From Pseudomonas grandcourensis (GTDB lineage Bacteria > Pseudomonadota > Gammaproteobacteria > Pseudomonadales > Pseudomonadaceae), in assembly GCF_039909015.1 (NCBI RefSeq), contig NZ_CP150919.1, forward strand, positions 5,308,501 to 5,372,500: a stretch of 64,000 nucleotides of DNA, given 5' to 3'. Position numbers and translations under genes: made by a program. How positions within the stretch are numbered: position 1 is the stretch's first letter; the number at the start of each line of letters is the position of its first letter. This document shows, piece by piece, positions 52,517 through 61,569 of the stretch. The notes beneath the pieces are model-generated. The model was given only the letters and a program-made list of their open reading frames with translations. It was not told the DNA's origin and searched no databases.

Positions 52517-55285
52517 ATGACCGCATGCACCCCTGCTGTTAATCCCATAAAAGCTTGGCTCAGTGAATTTTTACTCACCCGAGAGCTATTCAAAGGCCCC
52601 AACGGCAAACCTCTGTATAGCTACCAACTGTCCGAACACGAGTACGCATCCTTACGTGATTTGCTTCGAAAGTATTTGCGTCTGGCGTCCAGTCCAGTCC
52701 AGTTCATACACCTGGGAGCATGTTTTTGTTTATTCGTCAGTGAGCAGTACCGTAGAAATTACAACAGCTCATGGTCCTGGTCAGGCGCTGAGAGCGAGTT
52801 AGCCGTCTCACTTTCACACAGCCAGCATGCAACCTTGACCAGTAAAGGACTGGAATACTGGAAGCGCCCTATTCGATACCGTGAAAACGGTAGGGATTGG
52901 CTAGGGTCACTTTTCGCAGAAGGTGGGTTACCTTGGCCCCTAGTTCAAAAGGAATCACATGGCTTTGGCAAAGCCGTCAATCGAGGCATTAATCTCTTCA
53001 GTGCAGGGAGCAGCCACCGAACAACTGCTGACCTAATAGCGGCGCACGAAGATGAATTGCCAATTTCCTTTCGAAATCTAGAAACCAGGCAGCTGCTTGC
53101 CGGCATTGTTGAACAGTTGATGCATCTGGCGGGGCAATATCCGCTTAAGGATCAGAAAGACCCGGCTGCCTACCTGGATAAAGTCGCTCCTGAGTGGACA
53201 GAAGCCTTTCCAATCCCTCTCGATGAAACTAACGCTAGAGGCCTGATTAATGATTGGCTACATGATGCTGGCAAGCAGCGGCTTGATAGCAAAGAGGCCC
53301 TAATTCAAGCCCGAGCATTCACCTGTGAGCATTTTCTATTAGGCACACTGCCAGACTGGAGGATTAGGACAGAGCTTGCCTTACCAAAGGAACACTCATT
53401 TGATATTGATGCCCAGCAGCTGGGTAGCACTCGGCTCGATCAAGCCTATTACGAAGGTGAGCACATACTAGCTCGTGGGCCTGCGGTGTATGCCCAGCTG
53501 AACGAGTCGCGTCTGACGATCCGCTTCTCCAATCCCTCAATATCAATAGAACGTCGCCGGCTAGGCGAACCTGTCACGCTGCGCTTACTCGACAATGGAC
53601 GAGTTGTTCAATGTTACCAATTCGACGGCAGCGAGTTGGATTACGAAGAGACGCCGTTAGTTTTTGAGCAGCGGGCTGACTGCTGGCAATTAGTCGGAAC
53701 GTCCTCTTGCGGTGTTGCTGGTGAGTCCGCACGTATTCGCATTCCGACCAAATTTAGTATTTCGTCAGACGGCCCCGCACCATCGCTACTGACTACCGAC
53801 AGAGAGAACGGCCAGTGGCTGGATTTACGGGCCGACATATCGCTCCAAAACGGCCCTGATCTCTATCGAATCGAGCTAAATAAAAATCTAAACGAACACC
53901 GTAAGCCCGCTCTGGCCGGTGTTCAGGGCCTCTATGACAGCAATCCGAGTGTTGTGTATTTGGGTTGGCCACGACTGGAGCTGCCCGAAGACTATGAGTT
54001 TGGTTTGGGCGATATTCTAGAGTTTGCTAATGGGCAACCCCTGGATAGTCTTCGCCGTAACGGCCCTTTAGGTGTCGTTCGTTACAACTTAAAAAGCCGC
54101 ACGGGAAAAACGCTGTTAACACGCCGTTTTGCCGTCTTACCCAAAGAATTCAGTACCTCGTTGCTTCCCGCAACCACCGAAAAACCTGCGCGATTGCAGG
54201 TCAAAGGTGCGCTCCAGCTTGACTTGAAAATCGACAGCTCGCTGCTAATGGCCAAGCGGTTGGAGTCTGATCAGCCCGTAACCACTTTCAGCCTTATTCA
54301 CCCAACCGATGCACCTCCTGCTGGTTTTACGCTGAAGATCGACCAGAAAAACAGCAATCAGCCACTACAACTTCGTCTCCCGTATCCGTATCAAGGGGCA
54401 CGGCTTATTGGACCAGACGACCGGCCTTCACGAGCACATGAACTTACGTTAGCTGAGCTAATAGGTCATCGCATTGCATTGACCTCAGGACAAGCTCAAG
54501 GGCAAAGCTTCTACATGCAATTGGAACTGGTGTGCGAGGCGCTGCCGCATCCAAAACGGCACTATGAGATCAAAGTAGGCTCATCGCCCACGCTGCTAAA
54601 TTTATTTAGCTACCAAAATGACATGCTGCAAATGCTAGGAGCAGTCGACGAACAAGATGCGTTTATCAGACTCACCCTAGAAACCGAAAAGCGTGCGCTC
54701 AGCCTGAATATCAGACGGTACAACGGCCGCTTGCAATGGGAAAATCGAGACACATTCACGATCTGCGAAATAAGTAACGCGACAATTTTGAATGAAACCG
54801 AAGCTGAAGCAATGTTGCTTTCCGATCCTAAGCAAGCACCAGTCAGAATTGAGGGACTCAAGAGCCAAGGTGTTACCACCGGGCGATTTATTATACCCAA
54901 CACCATGCAACGTGATGGCCCATGGCTAATCTATCCTGCCAAAGATAGTAAAACTCAATTTCGCCCTGCGCTGTTCGTGTCGACATCGTCGATTGCTGAA
55001 ATTCAAACTGAAGTTTTTTCCCTGCACAGGGCAACACAGGTTTACCACCCAAAAACCAACCCAGATGCCATCAGTCAACAAATCACCGCGATGGCAATAG
55101 AGTTTGGACACAGCGGCTGGCAATATTTAGCGGATTTGAAGCAGCACTACGCACACCTGCCGTTGTCTTCATTTGAAAGCTGGAAGGCACTGTCAAAGCA
55201 ACCAGAGGCGCTTGCATTCGCGGTGCTCCGACTAGAAATGGACGAAGCTAGCATCCACTGGCGATCAGTCCAGCAATCAAATTAG
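52517..55285 (+). CDS. Large protein resembling the STY4851/ECs_5259 (YjiT, DruH-like) family
   Basis: 922-residue cytoplasmic protein without a signal peptide, membrane segment or recognised catalytic motif. The N-terminal region (IKAWLSEFLLTRELFKGPNG, KPLYSYQLSEHEYASLRDLL, GLEYWKRPIRYRENGRDWLGS, LFAEGGLPWPLV) recalls the STY4851/YjiT family, which in enterobacteria sits beside a DUF1998 helicase and which I associate with the Druantia type III defence protein DruH. The link is from memory and needs a profile search. The gene has visibly more A/T-rich codons than neighbouring core genes, suggesting acquisition. Only a fragment of a possible partner follows. Confidence 0.55.
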   Translation: MTACTPAVNPIKAWLSEFLLTRELFKGPNGKPLYSYQLSEHEYASLRDLLRKYLRLASSPVQFIHLGACFCLFVSEQYRRNYNSSWSWSGAESELAVSLSHSQHATLTSKGLEYWKRPIRYRENGRDWLGSLFAEGGLPWPLVQKESHGFGKAVNRGINLFSAGSSHRTTADLIAAHEDELPISFRNLETRQLLAGIVEQLMHLAGQYPLKDQKDPAAYLDKVAPEWTEAFPIPLDETNARGLINDWLHDAGKQRLDSKEALIQARAFTCEHFLLGTLPDWRIRTELALPKEHSFDIDAQQLGSTRLDQAYYEGEHILARGPAVYAQLNESRLTIRFSNPSISIERRRLGEPVTLRLLDNGRVVQCYQFDGSELDYEETPLVFEQRADCWQLVGTSSCGVAGESARIRIPTKFSISSDGPAPSLLTTDRENGQWLDLRADISLQNGPDLYRIELNKNLNEHRKPALAGVQGLYDSNPSVVYLGWPRLELPEDYEFGLGDILEFANGQPLDSLRRNGPLGVVRYNLKSRTGKTLLTRRFAVLPKEFSTSLLPATTEKPARLQVKGALQLDLKIDSSLLMAKRLESDQPVTTFSLIHPTDAPPAGFTLKIDQKNSNQPLQLRLPYPYQGARLIGPDDRPSRAHELTLAELIGHRIALTSGQAQGQSFYMQLELVCEALPHPKRHYEIKVGSSPTLLNLFSYQNDMLQMLGAVDEQDAFIRLTLETEKRALSLNIRRYNGRLQWENRDTFTICEISNATILNETEAEAMLLSDPKQAPVRIEGLKSQGVTTGRFIIPNTMQRDGPWLIYPAKDSKTQFRPALFVSTSSIAEIQTEVFSLHRATQVYHPKTNPDAISQQITAMAIEFGHSGWQYLADLKQHYAHLPLSSFESWKALSKQPEALAFAVLRLEMDEASIHWRSVQQSN

Positions 55286-56063: not shown

Positions 56064-56071
56064 TAATGGAT

Positions 56072-56635
56072 ATGCCTGTAAATACTTCACTCCGATCAGT
56101 AATCTCTGATCCTTTCCATCCAATGATCTTTACCCTCCATAACCTACCGCTCCATGCCCTCCTGCTGGAAAATCAACCATGGTTCTGTGCCCGTGACATT
56201 GGCCGCTTGATGGGTGTCCATCTGAGTGATCGCATGGTCAGCAAACTGGATAAGGATCAACGCTGCTTCTTGTGGATTGAGTATTTCCGACAACCACGGA
56301 AACAGCTAATGCTCAGCGAGTCCGGTGTGTATGCACTATTGGTGTATCACTATGTTCCCGCAAATCGATTGTTACGCGAATGGCTGACCCAGCAGGTTGT
56401 GCAGGCCTTACGTGATGCCGTGCAGCCGTATGCTGCGGATCGACCGATGTTGAGTTCGTTGGACTGGCCGGAAATGTCGTTAAATCTGCTGCACTGGCGG
56501 GGTGAAAGTTGGATTCGGCTACGAGACATGCCTTACCTGTTAGACGATCAAACGCAGCGGCGGGTGTTGGTAGCTAAGCCTTGGTGGCGGAAGGTAGCCC
56601 GGGTGTTTCAGTCGTCGAAGCATTCGAGGGACTAA
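56072..56635 (+). CDS. BRO-N domain antirepressor-like protein
   Basis: 187-residue protein with an N-terminal BRO-N domain (MIFTLHNLPLHALLLENQPWFCARDIGRLMG, LMLSESGVYALLVYHYVPANRLLREWL), as in phage antirepressors, and a divergent C-terminal part. ATG 56072 is preferred over 56066 because AGAGG then lies eight bases upstream. Such genes are usually phage-derived; no other phage gene is visible here. A hairpin covers the ribosome binding site, hinting at translational control. Confidence 0.8.
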   Translation: MPVNTSLRSVISDPFHPMIFTLHNLPLHALLLENQPWFCARDIGRLMGVHLSDRMVSKLDKDQRCFLWIEYFRQPRKQLMLSESGVYALLVYHYVPANRLLREWLTQQVVQALRDAVQPYAADRPMLSSLDWPEMSLNLLHWRGESWIRLRDMPYLLDDQTQRRVLVAKPWWRKVARVFQSSKHSRD

Positions 56636-56643
56636 GGACAGCC

Positions 56644-56674
56644 TGTAGGAACGAAAACGCGAGGGTTTCCTACA
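56644..56674. repeat. Inverted repeat TGTAGGAA...TTCCTACA (copy 1)
   Basis: Eight-base arms at 56644-56651 and 56667-56674 with a 15-base spacer, between the stops of the BRO-N and nuclease genes. The same arms recur at 57895-57912. Confidence 0.6.
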
Positions 56675-56770
56675 AGCACTTCACCAACTGTCCTCATTTC
56701 CATAACCAGCAACTCGCAGCCTCTCAATATTTGCAGGCAACAGCCCTCACTGCCTCAGCACACAGTTCAA

Positions 56771-57868
56771 TCAGGCTTCAATTGCTTCCAACCGCTGCTT
56801 CAACTTCTCATTCAGCAACGCTCCATGTACTCCAGAATGAATTTCCCGATGGCAACTTGGGCACACGGCTCCCACATAGCGCGGGTGATCTAGTCCACCA
56901 TCTGAGAGCCGGTTTACGTGATGCGGCTCTAAGTAGGGGGTGCCATCCTTTTTCGTAAAAGGAGCCGGTTTCTCACAGCTCTCACATTCTCCCTTGGCGC
57001 GCATCAGCACATAGTGCGCAACCTTTCGGCTGCGCTGGTAGATCTTACGCGGAGCGGATACCCCTAAATCATCGCTGCTGGGCTTACATGCAGCCAGCGC
57101 AGCCAACCGCGCAGCATCCAGAGACCCGGAAAGGTCAGCCTCATCTTCATCCTGTTCTTCAGCTTCAATTGCTTCAGCAGGAATTGCCACAGGGACTAAC
57201 CGAAAAACAATCGCCGTCCGATCCTGGCCGCTCACATCCGGCTGGATCTGCTCAAACGTGTCGGCGCAAGAAAACTCGCCCATGTAAGCGTTGCCTTTAC
57301 CTTTGCCTAGGGACTTAAACAAGTGAAGCGCTCGACCATCCACGGCATGCTCAGCAATGGCTCGGTTGCCACGGGTCAAAGTCATCGGCCCGCGCTGCCC
57401 TTCACCGGTATAAAAGTAGGCGCCGTCTTCCCAGTGGTCGGCATACCCGTATTGTTCACCGCTATCGCCAGTGAACAAAAAAATCGCAGGGTAGGTAGCG
57501 GACGCTGCAATGCCGCTTTGCAGGCTTCCACCGAACGGTCCGTTGATTTCAGTTTTTCGGTCGTAAACAGCTCCCGGTCTGAACTGCAAGACATGCGTGC
57601 CCTCCCCACTCGGTAACTCCACAACAGTGAAGCCCCGCTTTTTTAGATAACTGTTGGTCGGGTGCCCACCGGAGAACTCTCCTACGGCAATGCCAGTTGC
57701 CAGAGAGACGATTTTCTTCGCCGGATACAGTTCGCCGCCCGAGTGAACGGCGTAACGGTGAGCTAAGTTTTTTTCCCAGCCCAGCCACTCGTGCTTACTC
57801 CGAAATTTACGGTCAAATTCCAGCAACGCTTTGTCTATTCGTTCCTTCGAAACCGCTTTGATCACCAC
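56771..57868 (-). CDS. SRA-HNH modification-dependent endonuclease (ScoMcrA type)
   Basis: Likely type IV restriction enzyme cutting modified foreign DNA. The 365-residue protein has an N-terminal region of about 80 residues, a ScoMcrA/YDG-type SRA-like recognition domain (about 85-215: GAVYDRKTEINGPFGGSLQ, GYADHWEDGAYFYTGEGQ, NRAIAEHAVDGRALHLF) and a C-terminal HNH nuclease (about 275-355: CESCEKPAPF, YLEPHHVNRLSDGG, GAVCPSCHREIHSG) with paired CxxC zinc ligands. All catalytic residues appear intact. Which modification it reads, 5-methylcytosine or phosphorothioate, cannot be told from sequence alone. Confidence 0.88.
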   Translation of the reverse strand: MVIKAVSKERIDKALLEFDRKFRSKHEWLGWEKNLAHRYAVHSGGELYPAKKIVSLATGIAVGEFSGGHPTNSYLKKRGFTVVELPSGEGTHVLQFRPGAVYDRKTEINGPFGGSLQSGIAASATYPAIFLFTGDSGEQYGYADHWEDGAYFYTGEGQRGPMTLTRGNRAIAEHAVDGRALHLFKSLGKGKGNAYMGEFSCADTFEQIQPDVSGQDRTAIVFRLVPVAIPAEAIEAEEQDEDEADLSGSLDAARLAALAACKPSSDDLGVSAPRKIYQRSRKVAHYVLMRAKGECESCEKPAPFTKKDGTPYLEPHHVNRLSDGGLDHPRYVGAVCPSCHREIHSGVHGALLNEKLKQRLEAIEA

Positions 57869-58065: not shown

Positions 58066-61000
58066 TCACCTCCCCAACCCACTAATCCGCCACGGACACA
58101 CCGCTGCCCTAACCCCACTCGGCCCAACAATCTCCGGCGTCTGCCCCAAGGACCTCGCACTCAACACACTCCCCACCCGCTCAATCAACTGATCAAACCC
58201 CAACGTCGCATCCTCCTGATGCAATTTGCGCAGTTGTTCGACCAGGGCATAGGTAAAGGCCCCATAGCTGTTCGACCCCACCTCATACTCATTGGCTTTT
58301 TCGTTCTCCCGCGCGGCATAGAGCATCAGCGGCATGTACGGCCCATGGTGGCCGTAGAGTTTGCCTTGGCGCAGCAGTTGGGCTTTTTTCTCGGGACGAA
58401 GGCCCGTGGCGGCGCCTTGGGTGGTGCGGGTGCGGGTGAGGCCGCGGGTTTTGTTGTCTTGTTCGCTGAAGTCGCGGCGGTCGCTGTCGACGGCGTAGAC
58501 GCGGCGGTCCCAGTCGCCGGCGTAGGGGTCCCAGCGCAGCATGCGGTGGCGGATGTCGCTGGGTGGGGTGATGCCACGCACGCGGCCGTTGCCGCGGGTC
58601 ATGCCGCCGGCGTAGCAGCAGTCGAACATGACGGTGAGTTTGGCGCCGTGGCCGTCCGGGTCGAATGGCAGGTGGCTGTAGAACTGGCGGAACAGTTTGT
58701 CGGTGAAGTGGGTGCTTTCGTCGTCCCAGTCGAAGTCGTGGAGCACCAGGGTTTCGTCCATGCAGTCGGCTTCGCCGCTGCTGCTGTAGACCGGCAGTTG
58801 AGTGCCGTGGCCGGAGTAGAACAACACGCGCTCGTCCCCGGCGCGGGCGCCTTCCACCAGCCATTCGAGGCGCTCGACGAAGTTGGCCCGGGTCGCTCGG
58901 GCGTCGTGCAGCAATCGGATGTCGCCAGCGTCGTAGCCGCTTTCCTGGAGCATGCGGCTGATCAGGTAGGTGTCGTTGATGCAGCCGTCCAGGCGTGCAC
59001 TCGGGTCGAGGTAATCGTTGATGCCGACCACCAGGGCGCGGCGTTTGCGTTGGCCGCTGCGGGACAGGAACGCTGGCACTTCCAGTGCCCGTGCGGCCAC
59101 CACATCACGGGCCAATTGCGGCCAGAGGCCGGTCTGGCTGGTGGGTGACGACAAGTAGGCCTGGGCGGCGTGGTTGAGGTCGAGCAGGTCATCGCGCAAT
59201 GGCAAGGTGAATTCGGTTTGCAGGTCGACCCGCGCGGAATCCGGCGAGGTGATTGGCCGGGTCAGCAAGCCGTCGTTGGGGTTATAGAGGTGGAACCAGC
59301 GGCGGATGCCTCGGCCGTTTTCGCTCAGGCGCAGGACTCTCCCGCCCCACACTTCGCGCATCACCAGCGGCAGTGCGATCGGTGAGCCGAAGCTGACGAA
59401 CACCCGGCCATCGATGCGCTTGAGTGCCGAACCTTTTTTCGCCACCGACCGGCGCAGGGCGTCGTAGCCGATCAGGCTGCCCAAGCCTTGGGCGAAGATG
59501 ATCTGCGGATTGAATGCGTCGATCTTTGCGAGCAGATGTTGAGTCAACTCCGTGCGCAAATCGGCGTCTTCGATCCATTGCACGAGGGCGCCCACCGTGG
59601 TGCGCAACATCTGGTTGACCGGCAGGCCCCAACTGCCGAAGTTCTCGTCGGCCTTGCCCCTGGCATCGGCCCTCAGCATCGCCAGGCCTCGGGTGATCTG
59701 GGCGAAGTCCGGCCCCTCCTTGAGTTGCTCATCGAAGCACAGAAAGTCGATGTCCTGGTCATCGATGGGGCGACCGTTCTGTGCCAGTTGAGTGCGGATC
59801 AAGGTGCGCCATTGTTCCTGCCAGTTCGCATCGATACCGCCCTGCCCGCCCGTTGCCCGGCTGAACCCCACGCCGGGCAGGCACAGGACGCGCAGCCGTG
59901 TTGGCGCGACCTCCGATCCCGGCTCGACCAAGGCTTTGCTGGCCGGCGCCGCCACCGGGGGCACCGTTTGCCCTTGGGCGGTGACCATCAAATCCTGCAG
60001 GCGCCGCAGTTTCGCCTCCAGGCTGTCTGCACTGGGCGCGGCAGGCGTGAGTGCCGCCTGGCCCGGATCAGCCAGGGCACGACTGCGGTTGCCAAGAAAA
60101 CCGCTGACCCACTGGGCGCTGCTCTTCCAGATCTGCTCTGGATCGAGGCCATCGAGGTAACCGGTGGCGCTGTCCACCACCTGTCGGCTTTGGGTCGCCA
60201 GTTCGGACTCGATCAATGGCAACCCGGCGCGACTCGGCACCACGGTGGCCGCCAATGTCGGCGCTGCCGTTACGCTCGGTGCGGCACGCCAGATGGGTGC
60301 ATTGCCGAAGTGCTGCGCGGCGACCACCCGTGGGCCGAGGGCACTGCGCGGCACCTTGAAGTGATCGCAAAGAAACGCCAGCAAACTGGTGTGATCGTAG
60401 TGCTGCGCCTGGACATCGCCCGTCCAGGGGATCAAACCCGGCTTGAGCCACGGCGAAGCCAGGATCGCCGGTACACGCACGCCGAGGCGGGTGAAGGGGT
60501 TCTTCCAGGGCACATCGACCGTTGAACCGGTTGCCACGCAAGTTGGCGGCACCACGTGGTCTTGGAAGCCGCCATGTTCGTCGTACAACAGCACGAACAA
60601 GGTTTTGCTCCAGACAGCGGCATTGGCCGACAAGGCGTTGAACACCTCGCCGACGAACTGATCGCCAAAGCGCAAATCTTCAGGTGGATGATGGGACACG
60701 TTTGGCCCGAGTTTGCCGTTGAGCAGGCCATAGCTCGGTTCGATCCACGACAGTTCAGGGAGTTTGTTTCCGGCGACGTCTGCCTTGAAGTCGTCGATGC
60801 TCAGGTGCTGCAAACCACCCTTGACCAGCGCCGCCAACGGAACAGCGCCGTCGGAATAAATGCGCGCGTCATGGCCGTTGTTGCGCAGCAGCGAAAAAAT
60901 GCTCTCGCCGCCGAACTGTGCGATCAGGCTTTTGATGCCGGCCAGTACCGTGCCGGTGGAGGGCATCAGTAGATGACCATTGCAACTGCCGAGCATGGCA

Positions 61001-61569
61001 AAAAAACGGTTCGGCCAGGTCGGGCCTGGGACCGAGGAAAACCAGCGGTCGCACACGGTGAAATTGCGCGCCAATCCGTGGATGGCCGGCAGCGTATCCT
61101 TCGCGGGCGTAGCGCCGAACGGGATGTAGTTCATCGCCCGCTGGGCCATGGATTGCGACCAGGTTTTGTACACTTTCAGGTCGGTGCGGGCCTTGTCGTA
61201 GGCGTCCTGGGCAAAACCATTGAGCGTGGGGTTGGCCGGGCTGGTCTTGAAGGCGACGCCCAGTTGTTTCTCTACATTGACGAACTCGTGACCAAGGTCG
61301 AAACCCTCGCTGTTGCTCGGCGGCAACGCCGGAGGCAGAGGGGGCGGCGGCGCCCACAGGCTGTAGTTCTCCGGGAACTCCGAGGCCTGGGTGATCACCG
61401 TCGAATTGCCATTGGCCAGCTTCAGCGGGTTGGTGCTGGGCGCCTTGCGGTTGATACCGTCACACGCGGGATTAATGCTTGTGTAATCCCCCAGCAAATG
61501 GTCGAACGAACGGTTTTCCATCATCAGTACGACAACGTGTTCAATCCCGGCGGGCCAGTTGTTCGGCAT
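58066..61569 (-). CDS. Phospholipase C-type phosphoesterase / hydrolase-like / caspase (C14) fusion protein
   Basis: 1167-residue protein with three parts. Residues about 1-430 are an acid phosphatase/phospholipase C-type phosphoesterase with metal-site motifs (VVVLMMENRSFDHLLG, SWIEPSYG, VSHHPPEDLRFGDQFVG, and LLYDEHGGFQDHVVPP near 330). Residues about 560-840 resemble an alpha/beta hydrolase, but the nucleophile elbow reads FAQGLGSLIGYD near 694, with glycine where GHSLG would place serine. Residues about 843-1150 are a caspase-like peptidase with the histidine (LFYSGHGTQLP, near 917) and cysteine (VMFDCCYAGGM, near 985) dyad. No signal peptide is seen. It follows the SulP gene by 44 bases on the same strand. 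Substrate and role are unknown. Confidence 0.85.
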   Translation of the reverse strand: MPNNWPAGIEHVVVLMMENRSFDHLLGDYTSINPACDGINRKAPSTNPLKLANGNSTVITQASEFPENYSLWAPPPPLPPALPPSNSEGFDLGHEFVNVEKQLGVAFKTSPANPTLNGFAQDAYDKARTDLKVYKTWSQSMAQRAMNYIPFGATPAKDTLPAIHGLARNFTVCDRWFSSVPGPTWPNRFFAMLGSCNGHLLMPSTGTVLAGIKSLIAQFGGESIFSLLRNNGHDARIYSDGAVPLAALVKGGLQHLSIDDFKADVAGNKLPELSWIEPSYGLLNGKLGPNVSHHPPEDLRFGDQFVGEVFNALSANAAVWSKTLFVLLYDEHGGFQDHVVPPTCVATGSTVDVPWKNPFTRLGVRVPAILASPWLKPGLIPWTGDVQAQHYDHTSLLAFLCDHFKVPRSALGPRVVAAQHFGNAPIWRAAPSVTAAPTLAATVVPSRAGLPLIESELATQSRQVVDSATGYLDGLDPEQIWKSSAQWVSGFLGNRSRALADPGQAALTPAAPSADSLEAKLRRLQDLMVTAQGQTVPPVAAPASKALVEPGSEVAPTRLRVLCLPGVGFSRATGGQGGIDANWQEQWRTLIRTQLAQNGRPIDDQDIDFLCFDEQLKEGPDFAQITRGLAMLRADARGKADENFGSWGLPVNQMLRTTVGALVQWIEDADLRTELTQHLLAKIDAFNPQIIFAQGLGSLIGYDALRRSVAKKGSALKRIDGRVFVSFGSPIALPLVMREVWGGRVLRLSENGRGIRRWFHLYNPNDGLLTRPITSPDSARVDLQTEFTLPLRDDLLDLNHAAQAYLSSPTSQTGLWPQLARDVVAARALEVPAFLSRSGQRKRRALVVGINDYLDPSARLDGCINDTYLISRMLQESGYDAGDIRLLHDARATRANFVERLEWLVEGARAGDERVLFYSGHGTQLPVYSSSGEADCMDETLVLHDFDWDDESTHFTDKLFRQFYSHLPFDPDGHGAKLTVMFDCCYAGGMTRGNGRVRGITPPSDIRHRMLRWDPYAGDWDRRVYAVDSDRRDFSEQDNKTRGLTRTRTTQGAATGLRPEKKAQLLRQGKLYGHHGPYMPLMLYAARENEKANEYEVGSNSYGAFTYALVEQLRKLHQEDATLGFDQLIERVGSVLSARSLGQTPEIVGPSGVRAAVCPWRISGLGR

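Follow-up and report, generated by a model that had tools for sequence, protein, structure and literature searches.

What a single bacterial polypeptide might do with a phospholipase-like enzyme, an alpha/beta-hydrolase and a caspase-like protease is the question raised by one gene in a 64,000-nucleotide stretch of DNA from the soil bacterium Pseudomonas grandcourensis (assembly GCF_039909015.1, contig NZ_CP150919.1, positions 5,308,501 to 5,372,500; hereafter the window). The gene lies at positions 58066..61569 on the minus strand and encodes, in a single open frame, a fusion protein of 1167 amino acids. We propose that this protein acts as an intracellular conflict effector, that is, a protease-controlled phospholipase that would attack the membrane, a reading to which we give almost, though not quite, an even chance and for which we infer cleavage, lipase activity, trigger and toxicity alike.

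Three folds and two conserved active sites

A preliminary description of the gene had read three domains in one chain, and the domain analysis bore this out. A Pfam scan placed a phospholipase C (PLC)-type phosphoesterase domain (PF04185) at residues 9-407 (60349..61545; all features given here lie on the minus strand) and, in the C-terminal third, a metacaspase-type domain (PF00656) at residues 842-1147 (58129..59046), both well above their cut-offs; PF04185 scored 205.6 bits against a cut-off of 23, with profile positions 1-356 of 356 covered. No Pfam match fell between these two parts, where an alpha/beta-hydrolase fold lacking the catalytic serine was recognised at residues 558-806 (59152..59898), and the C-terminal domain has the caspase fold of metacaspases (C14). 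The chain opens directly with the phosphoesterase domain, and no export signal was visible by inspection, a predictor not having been run. An NCBIfam scan returned sub-threshold matches only, among them the phosphocholine-specific PLC model TIGR03396 (147.1 bits, below the equivalog cut-off of 580.25) and the EACC1-associated caspase model NF047832 (34.9, below 140).

Two junctions separate the folds. The first, between phosphoesterase and hydrolase (linker 1, residues 450-557, 59899..60222), is partly helical in the structure model, with predicted local distance difference test (pLDDT) values below 50 at residues 495-512 and 534-556; the second, between hydrolase and caspase (linker 2, residues 807-842, 59044..59151), falls below 50 at residues 823-839. 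Similarly, the loop dividing the large and small caspase parts (residues 1024-1062, 58384..58500), which carries R1042-G-L, has pLDDT below 50 at residues 1037-1053.

A frameshift artefact joining two genes was considered and rejected, as the frame is single and intact and 46 database clusters have the same layout. A search of the genome itself returned one place with the fusion, 100% identical and devoid of stops, along with one further PF00656 place in a separate frame of 344 codons and no additional PF04185 place at E 0.001. The three-domain architecture is settled.

Residue conservation, counted over 47 full-length aligned proteins, agreed with the earlier view that the phosphoesterase metal site and the caspase His/Cys dyad are intact. 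In the first metal/catalytic motif, ENRSFDH (residues 18-24, 61498..61518), E18, N19, S21 and D23 are kept in 46/47 proteins, the remaining row being a gap there; in the second metal motif, YDEHGGFQDH (residues 329-338, 60556..60585), D330, E331, H332 and G333 are invariant and H338 is present in 46/47. The probable nucleophile, Thr184 of GPTWPNR (61018..61020), a role that we assume from the plant NPC and AcpA literature, is found together with N187 and R188 in all 47. Equally invariant in the caspase domain are the catalytic His921 (58807..58809), the three residues of D983-C984-C985 (58615..58623), D866 and E939. By analogy with Trypanosoma brucei MCA2 and yeast Yca1, we take D983 to belong to the S1 pocket and Cys985 to be catalytic, D866 and D983 being presumably equivalent to the S1-pocket residues of MCA2. 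From these residues, the domain is predicted to have a metacaspase-type acidic S1 pocket that accepts Arg or Lys at P1.

The middle domain departs from this pattern. Its nucleophile elbow, AQGLGS (residues 693-698, 59476..59493), has Gly695 where serine is expected, while the probable triad acid Asp766 (59272..59274; D in 46/47) and the probable triad histidine His800 (59170..59172; H in 45/47) are retained, leaving the catalytic Ser-Asp-His set incomplete in the window protein. The preliminary description had already noted the glycine; this held for the window protein but not as a general feature, since column 695 reads S in 37 proteins, G in 8, E in 1 and D in 1, a lineage-specific loss. All glycine bearers (P0001-P0008) are at least 78% identical to the window protein, on which ground the serine was probably lost once in this clade, and separately in P0029 and P0041. 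The hydrolase of the clade thus appears to be a pseudoenzyme. To gauge selection, the ratio of non-synonymous to synonymous substitution rates (dN/dS) was computed pairwise with a Nei-Gojobori script, without a significance test. In six comparisons inside the glycine clade, the hydrolase ranged over 0.083-0.150, the phosphoesterase over 0.052-0.167 and the caspase over 0.033-0.208; against L009, which keeps the serine, the hydrolase ratio rose to 0.266, with 0.146 and 0.166 for the other domains. The serine-less hydrolase is under purifying selection, as are all domains, and is not decaying.

Arginine motifs in the linkers

If the protease acts on its own chain, the linkers are where a cut would be sought. 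Inspection of the alignment by eye had first brought up R-A-L at R497 and R827, both inside low-confidence segments. The former, R497-A-L499 (60073..60081), is a candidate self-cleavage site in linker 1, with Arg in 23/27 representatives, the highest Arg count of any column in 450-557; the latter, R827-A-L829 (59083..59091), is a second, weaker candidate in linker 2, with Arg in 19/27. We therefore counted the motif R-[AGST]-[LIVM] in 27 representatives (<75% identity) drawn from the 47 proteins and compared the counts with those of shuffled linkers. Linker 1 contains it in 23/27 (shuffled mean 11.4) and linker 2 in 24/27 (8.7), with none of 1000 shuffles as high in either case, and the caspase loop in 12/27 (5.7; 4/1000 shuffles). 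Narrower linker definitions yielded 21/27 for linker 1 (null 9.1) and 24/27 for linker 2 (null 8.0), none of 2000 shuffles reaching either value, and 18/27 representatives have the motif in both. Held-out proteins, found later, repeated the result for linker 1, with the motif in 8/8 (null 3.9; 6/3000 shuffles).

Acidic and Q/N control patterns were unenriched in the linkers, and the reversed pattern was unenriched in linker 1. Linker 1 showed mild enrichment of a K/H pattern followed by Pro (5/27, null 1.2; 10/2000) and, among the held-out proteins, of a Lys pattern (3/8, null 0.6; 34/3000); a Lys version of the motif would also be acceptable to a metacaspase. The plant NPC4 structure 8haw, whose title speaks of an auto-activation mechanism, aligns to model residues 7-536, helices of linker 1 included. 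A cut at the candidate R497 would therefore lie in a part of the chain with possible control over the phospholipase. The linker motif, the metacaspase-type S1 pocket and published caspase-activated pro-effectors (PMC12799240, PMC9612521) lend indirect and limited support to the self-processing suggested in the preliminary description, with linker 1 a good candidate cleavage region and linker 2 a weaker one.

Other results weigh against it. The motif was tested on the same set in which the eye had spotted it, and the shuffled nulls take no account of common descent. Nor are the eight held-out proteins independent, as pairs are up to 84% identical and all share P0043 as nearest relative in the discovery set (36-64% identity). 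Linker 2 did not clearly replicate in them (4/8, null 2.0; 310/3000), and in this linker the reversed pattern, too, exceeds its null, in 17/27 representatives (null 8.7), or 12/27 with Pro added (null 2.6). Motif density reaches 2.8 times expectation in the folded large part of the caspase, as against 2.7 and 3.0 in the linkers; the folded hydrolase stands at 1.8 times, and the phosphoesterase and the small caspase part lie below expectation (0.7 and 0.6). In the window protein, 11 R[AGST][LIVM] places occur overall, several of them inside folded parts. Column 497 is devoid of Arg in 4/27 representatives, and P0111 and P0048, which have both PLC and caspase domains, contain no strict-form motif. 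The hydrolase-caspase linker of a standalone family without the phosphoesterase carries the motif in 64/80 representatives (null 25.2), partly beside a conserved Trp, so that this linker 2 signal is perhaps in part structural. The genomic surroundings count against the wider effector proposal: PADLOC recognised no complete named system and gave the protein no more than its general caspase model (PDLC02987, E=2.2e-15), and no partner gene proved constant over the loci compared.

In an alternative reading, the protein is a multifunctional hydrolase with an allosteric protease, its parts sharing a target or a membrane, its linkers serving as spacers and no cleavage taking place between domains. 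The enrichment could then reflect ancestry; the equal density of the motif in some folded parts, the failure of linker 2 in the held-out set and its reversed-pattern signal speak for this reading. Against it stand the Arg column at 497, inside its low-confidence segment, and the replication of linker 1; of 8 hand-picked caspase-free PLC proteins, moreover, 2 have the motif within the 110 residues after the domain, a count that has no shuffle null. We regard this spacer alternative as rather unlikely, albeit the strongest competitor of a self-processing effector.

Distribution, exchanged partners and neighbourhood

A search with the full protein returned 120 matches, of which 46 clusters (P0002-P0047) combine PF04185 with PF00656 and cover 87-100% of the query; the P0002 cluster alone comprises 143 sequences. 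Both domains also occur in P0048 (40% covered), in the distant P0111 and in eight further PLC-caspase clusters (P0250, P0251, P0253, P0255, P0256, P0258, P0259, which lacks the N-terminus, and P0260). At 1460 residues, P0111 otherwise shows little similarity (28% identity over 33% of the query) and is maybe an independent PLC-caspase fusion. Named carriers include Pseudomonas, Roseateles and Thiobacillaceae, and many relatives are of metagenome origin. Within the genus, 9/298 genomes match at E 1e-100, own genome included: eight matches, those in the own genome and in a second genome of its species among them, are full-length, and the ninth (G005) is a hydrolase-caspase without phosphoesterase. 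The hydrolase-caspase profile matches 2/398 genomes of the phylum at E 1e-60, again counting the own one, and 1/297 in the order of G511, namely G511 itself. The fusion is rare and scattered, given how few genomes match in these surveys.

Without the phosphoesterase, the hydrolase and caspase form an abundant standalone family of 2110 matches. In the best 120 of these, the His-Ser nucleophile motif is present in 118 and both caspase motifs in 119. The same core is joined to an FAD lactone oxidase, N-terminal in P0050 and C-terminal in P0242 and P0254 (with a further C-terminal match, below cut-off, in P0052), and in P0246 to a phospholipase D (PLD)-like domain with two HxKxxxxD motifs; two unrelated phospholipase types therefore sit on one trigger-like core. 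As hydrolase and caspase abound as a module by themselves, they look like the core, and the phospholipase like an exchangeable add-on. P0263 and P0267 combine a caspase with a DUF7379 domain that lies a long way down the chain and in P0267 gives LCAT and PGAP1 matches slightly above cut-offs, and are perhaps a separate caspase-hydrolase invention. Two standalone loci deserve description. The N-terminal part of the G511 hydrolase-caspase (L089:10181-12517) lies in a different frame from the rest, and a second, separate caspase-like gene with a sub-threshold NF047832 match follows directly. In G005, 23 bases after the hydrolase-caspase (L090:9064-11654), stands a peptidoglycan-binding/TIGR02594 gene, a possible cell-wall-cutting partner.

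In the window, the fusion gene is preceded, 44 bases away on the same strand, by a gene for a SulP transporter. Downstream, an HNH gene with resemblance to type IV restriction enzymes (PADLOC E=9e-20) is accompanied by a Bro-N gene and one of the DruH/YjiT type. The genome G021 shares the SulP-side flank, 93% identical up to the SulP end, yet the fusion is unmatched there and methylase and PDC-M33A-like genes take its place after SulP. On this evidence, the site is a variable one, holding the fusion gene in some genomes and lacking it in others, among genes for restriction and defence; such a location suggests, short of proof, a defence role. Elsewhere the flanks differ: Mza-like and Vsr genes lie downstream in L012; a gene for a 351-residue protein replaces SulP upstream in L006-L008, L083 and L084; and L009 has an upstream lipoprotein-like gene with a sub-threshold metallo-beta-lactamase (MBL) match and a downstream ChaN-like gene.

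Several details of these loci were recorded alongside. The Bro-N and HNH genes (window 56066-57868) are convergent, and the HNH versions vary among strains, with 39-47% identity in an open reading frame comparison. The DruH/YjiT-family gene (window 52517-55285) matches NF038336 at 789 bits, and no Druantia helicase was recognised among the window reading frames scanned. The 351-residue protein (L006:8911-9966) has no Pfam match and bears hydrophobic stretches near both ends. Behind the intact gene in L012 (13646-14606), a 267-base copy of the gene's 3' end (94% identical to the window) follows a 209-residue open frame, perhaps left by an insertion that duplicated the gene end.

The surroundings bear on two further alternatives. 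The protein could be a housekeeping enzyme of lipid or phosphate metabolism, acting in membrane remodelling during phosphate starvation and governed by a regulatory protease; other bacteria use members of PF04185 to scavenge phosphate, and the close, co-oriented SulP gene would fit. However, the upstream gene varies (SulP, the 351-residue protein gene or the sub-threshold MBL gene) and the fusion gene itself comes and goes at a variable site, which makes a housekeeping role improbable. An exported or injected antibacterial effector, for instance of type VI, whose phospholipase would hit rival cells and whose caspase would cut rival proteins, is very unlikely: pseudomonads do deploy phospholipase effectors of the type VI system and the distribution is sporadic, but the neighbours identified are transporter, restriction-like and defence genes, a weak counterargument with VgrG, PAAR and immunity profiles not searched.

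Proposed mechanism and related systems

For the protease-controlled effector, we envisage a single chain that would stay inactive in the cytosol until a cue of infection or damage switches on the metacaspase; the pseudo-hydrolase might be the sensor of this cue, in the form of a lipid or protein ligand. The protease would then cut after an arginine in the phosphoesterase-hydrolase linker, with R497 as candidate (and R827 and R1042, elsewhere in the chain, as weaker ones), and this cut would release or unlock the phosphoesterase, which might attack the cell's own phospholipids. The hydrolase-caspase core may be a trigger that is used repeatedly, with the add-on (PLC, PLD or FAD lactone oxidase) for its weapon.

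By analogy, the fusion may work like several published systems. According to Kaur et al. (2020, PMC7159879), an alpha/beta-hydrolase gene is invariably found next to VMAP proteins with caspase domains, and effector release by proteolysis is proposed for these conflict systems. The VMAP (MoxR-vWA) ternary systems described there resemble the fusion in coupling a caspase-superfamily domain to an alpha/beta-hydrolase; this published pairing is why we see the fusion as a variation on a known theme. They differ in using separate neighbouring genes together with MoxR, vWA and VMAP, whereas the fusion is one chain with a PLC domain; no MoxR, vWA or VMAP gene was recognised among the neighbours scanned, for which dedicated profiles were not run. 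The EACC1-associated caspases treated in the same paper are likewise fused to variable effectors, with auto-proteolysis proposed, but the fusion stays below the NF047832 cut-off and has its caspase at the C-terminus.

In canu loci (PMC12799240), a caspase activates a pro-nuclease. There the proteins are separate and the effector is an MBL nuclease, whereas the fusion holds its phospholipase in cis; no canu-type MBL pro-nuclease gene lies downstream in the window, where the next gene encodes the HNH protein, and the sub-threshold MBL gene of L009 is upstream, unlike canu's downstream position. A survey published in 2012, which covered 671 prokaryotic metacaspases (PMC3501461), names a GDSL lipase-amidase-metacaspase chain of Chitinophaga pinensis, which shares the joining of lipase and caspase but has another lipase family and an extra amidase and is a single named sequence; the words 'phosphoesterase' and 'phospholipase' are absent from the main text of that article.

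Individual domains also have separate counterparts. Plant NPC4 (8hav/8haw) resembles the N-terminus in phosphoesterase fold and catalytic residues, is 33% identical where 8hav aligns, and lacks a protease. Metacaspases (Arabidopsis MC4/MC9, yeast Yca1, T. brucei MCA2) share the fold, the His/Cys dyad and the acidic S1 pocket, but none of them stands behind two other enzymatic folds.

Bacterial gasdermins (PMC9612521) are cleaved at Leu or Arg by a range of proteases, caspase-like ones among them. The likeness is that a caspase-like protease frees a membrane-damaging protein; the difference, that the gasdermin is a pore-former in trans and the fusion an enzyme in cis. A more specific, and to us doubtful, version of the proposal is a one-gene suicide switch, in which the protease would cut the linker Arg-Ala-Leu sites, the lipase would digest the cell's own membrane and the pseudo-hydrolase would sense a lipid or other ligand, the core bearing other warheads elsewhere. 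It might, just as tentatively, be viewed as the cis counterpart of caspase-gasdermin pairs.

Precise and readily tested sites are at hand in C985, T184, R497 and R827, and the family offers natural comparison sets, namely a pseudoenzyme clade beside serine-keeping clades and several warhead swaps. If the proposal is true, the large hydrolase-caspase family would be a general trigger module, and caspase-controlled membrane destruction, known from gasdermins, would also occur within one protein whose warhead is an enzyme.

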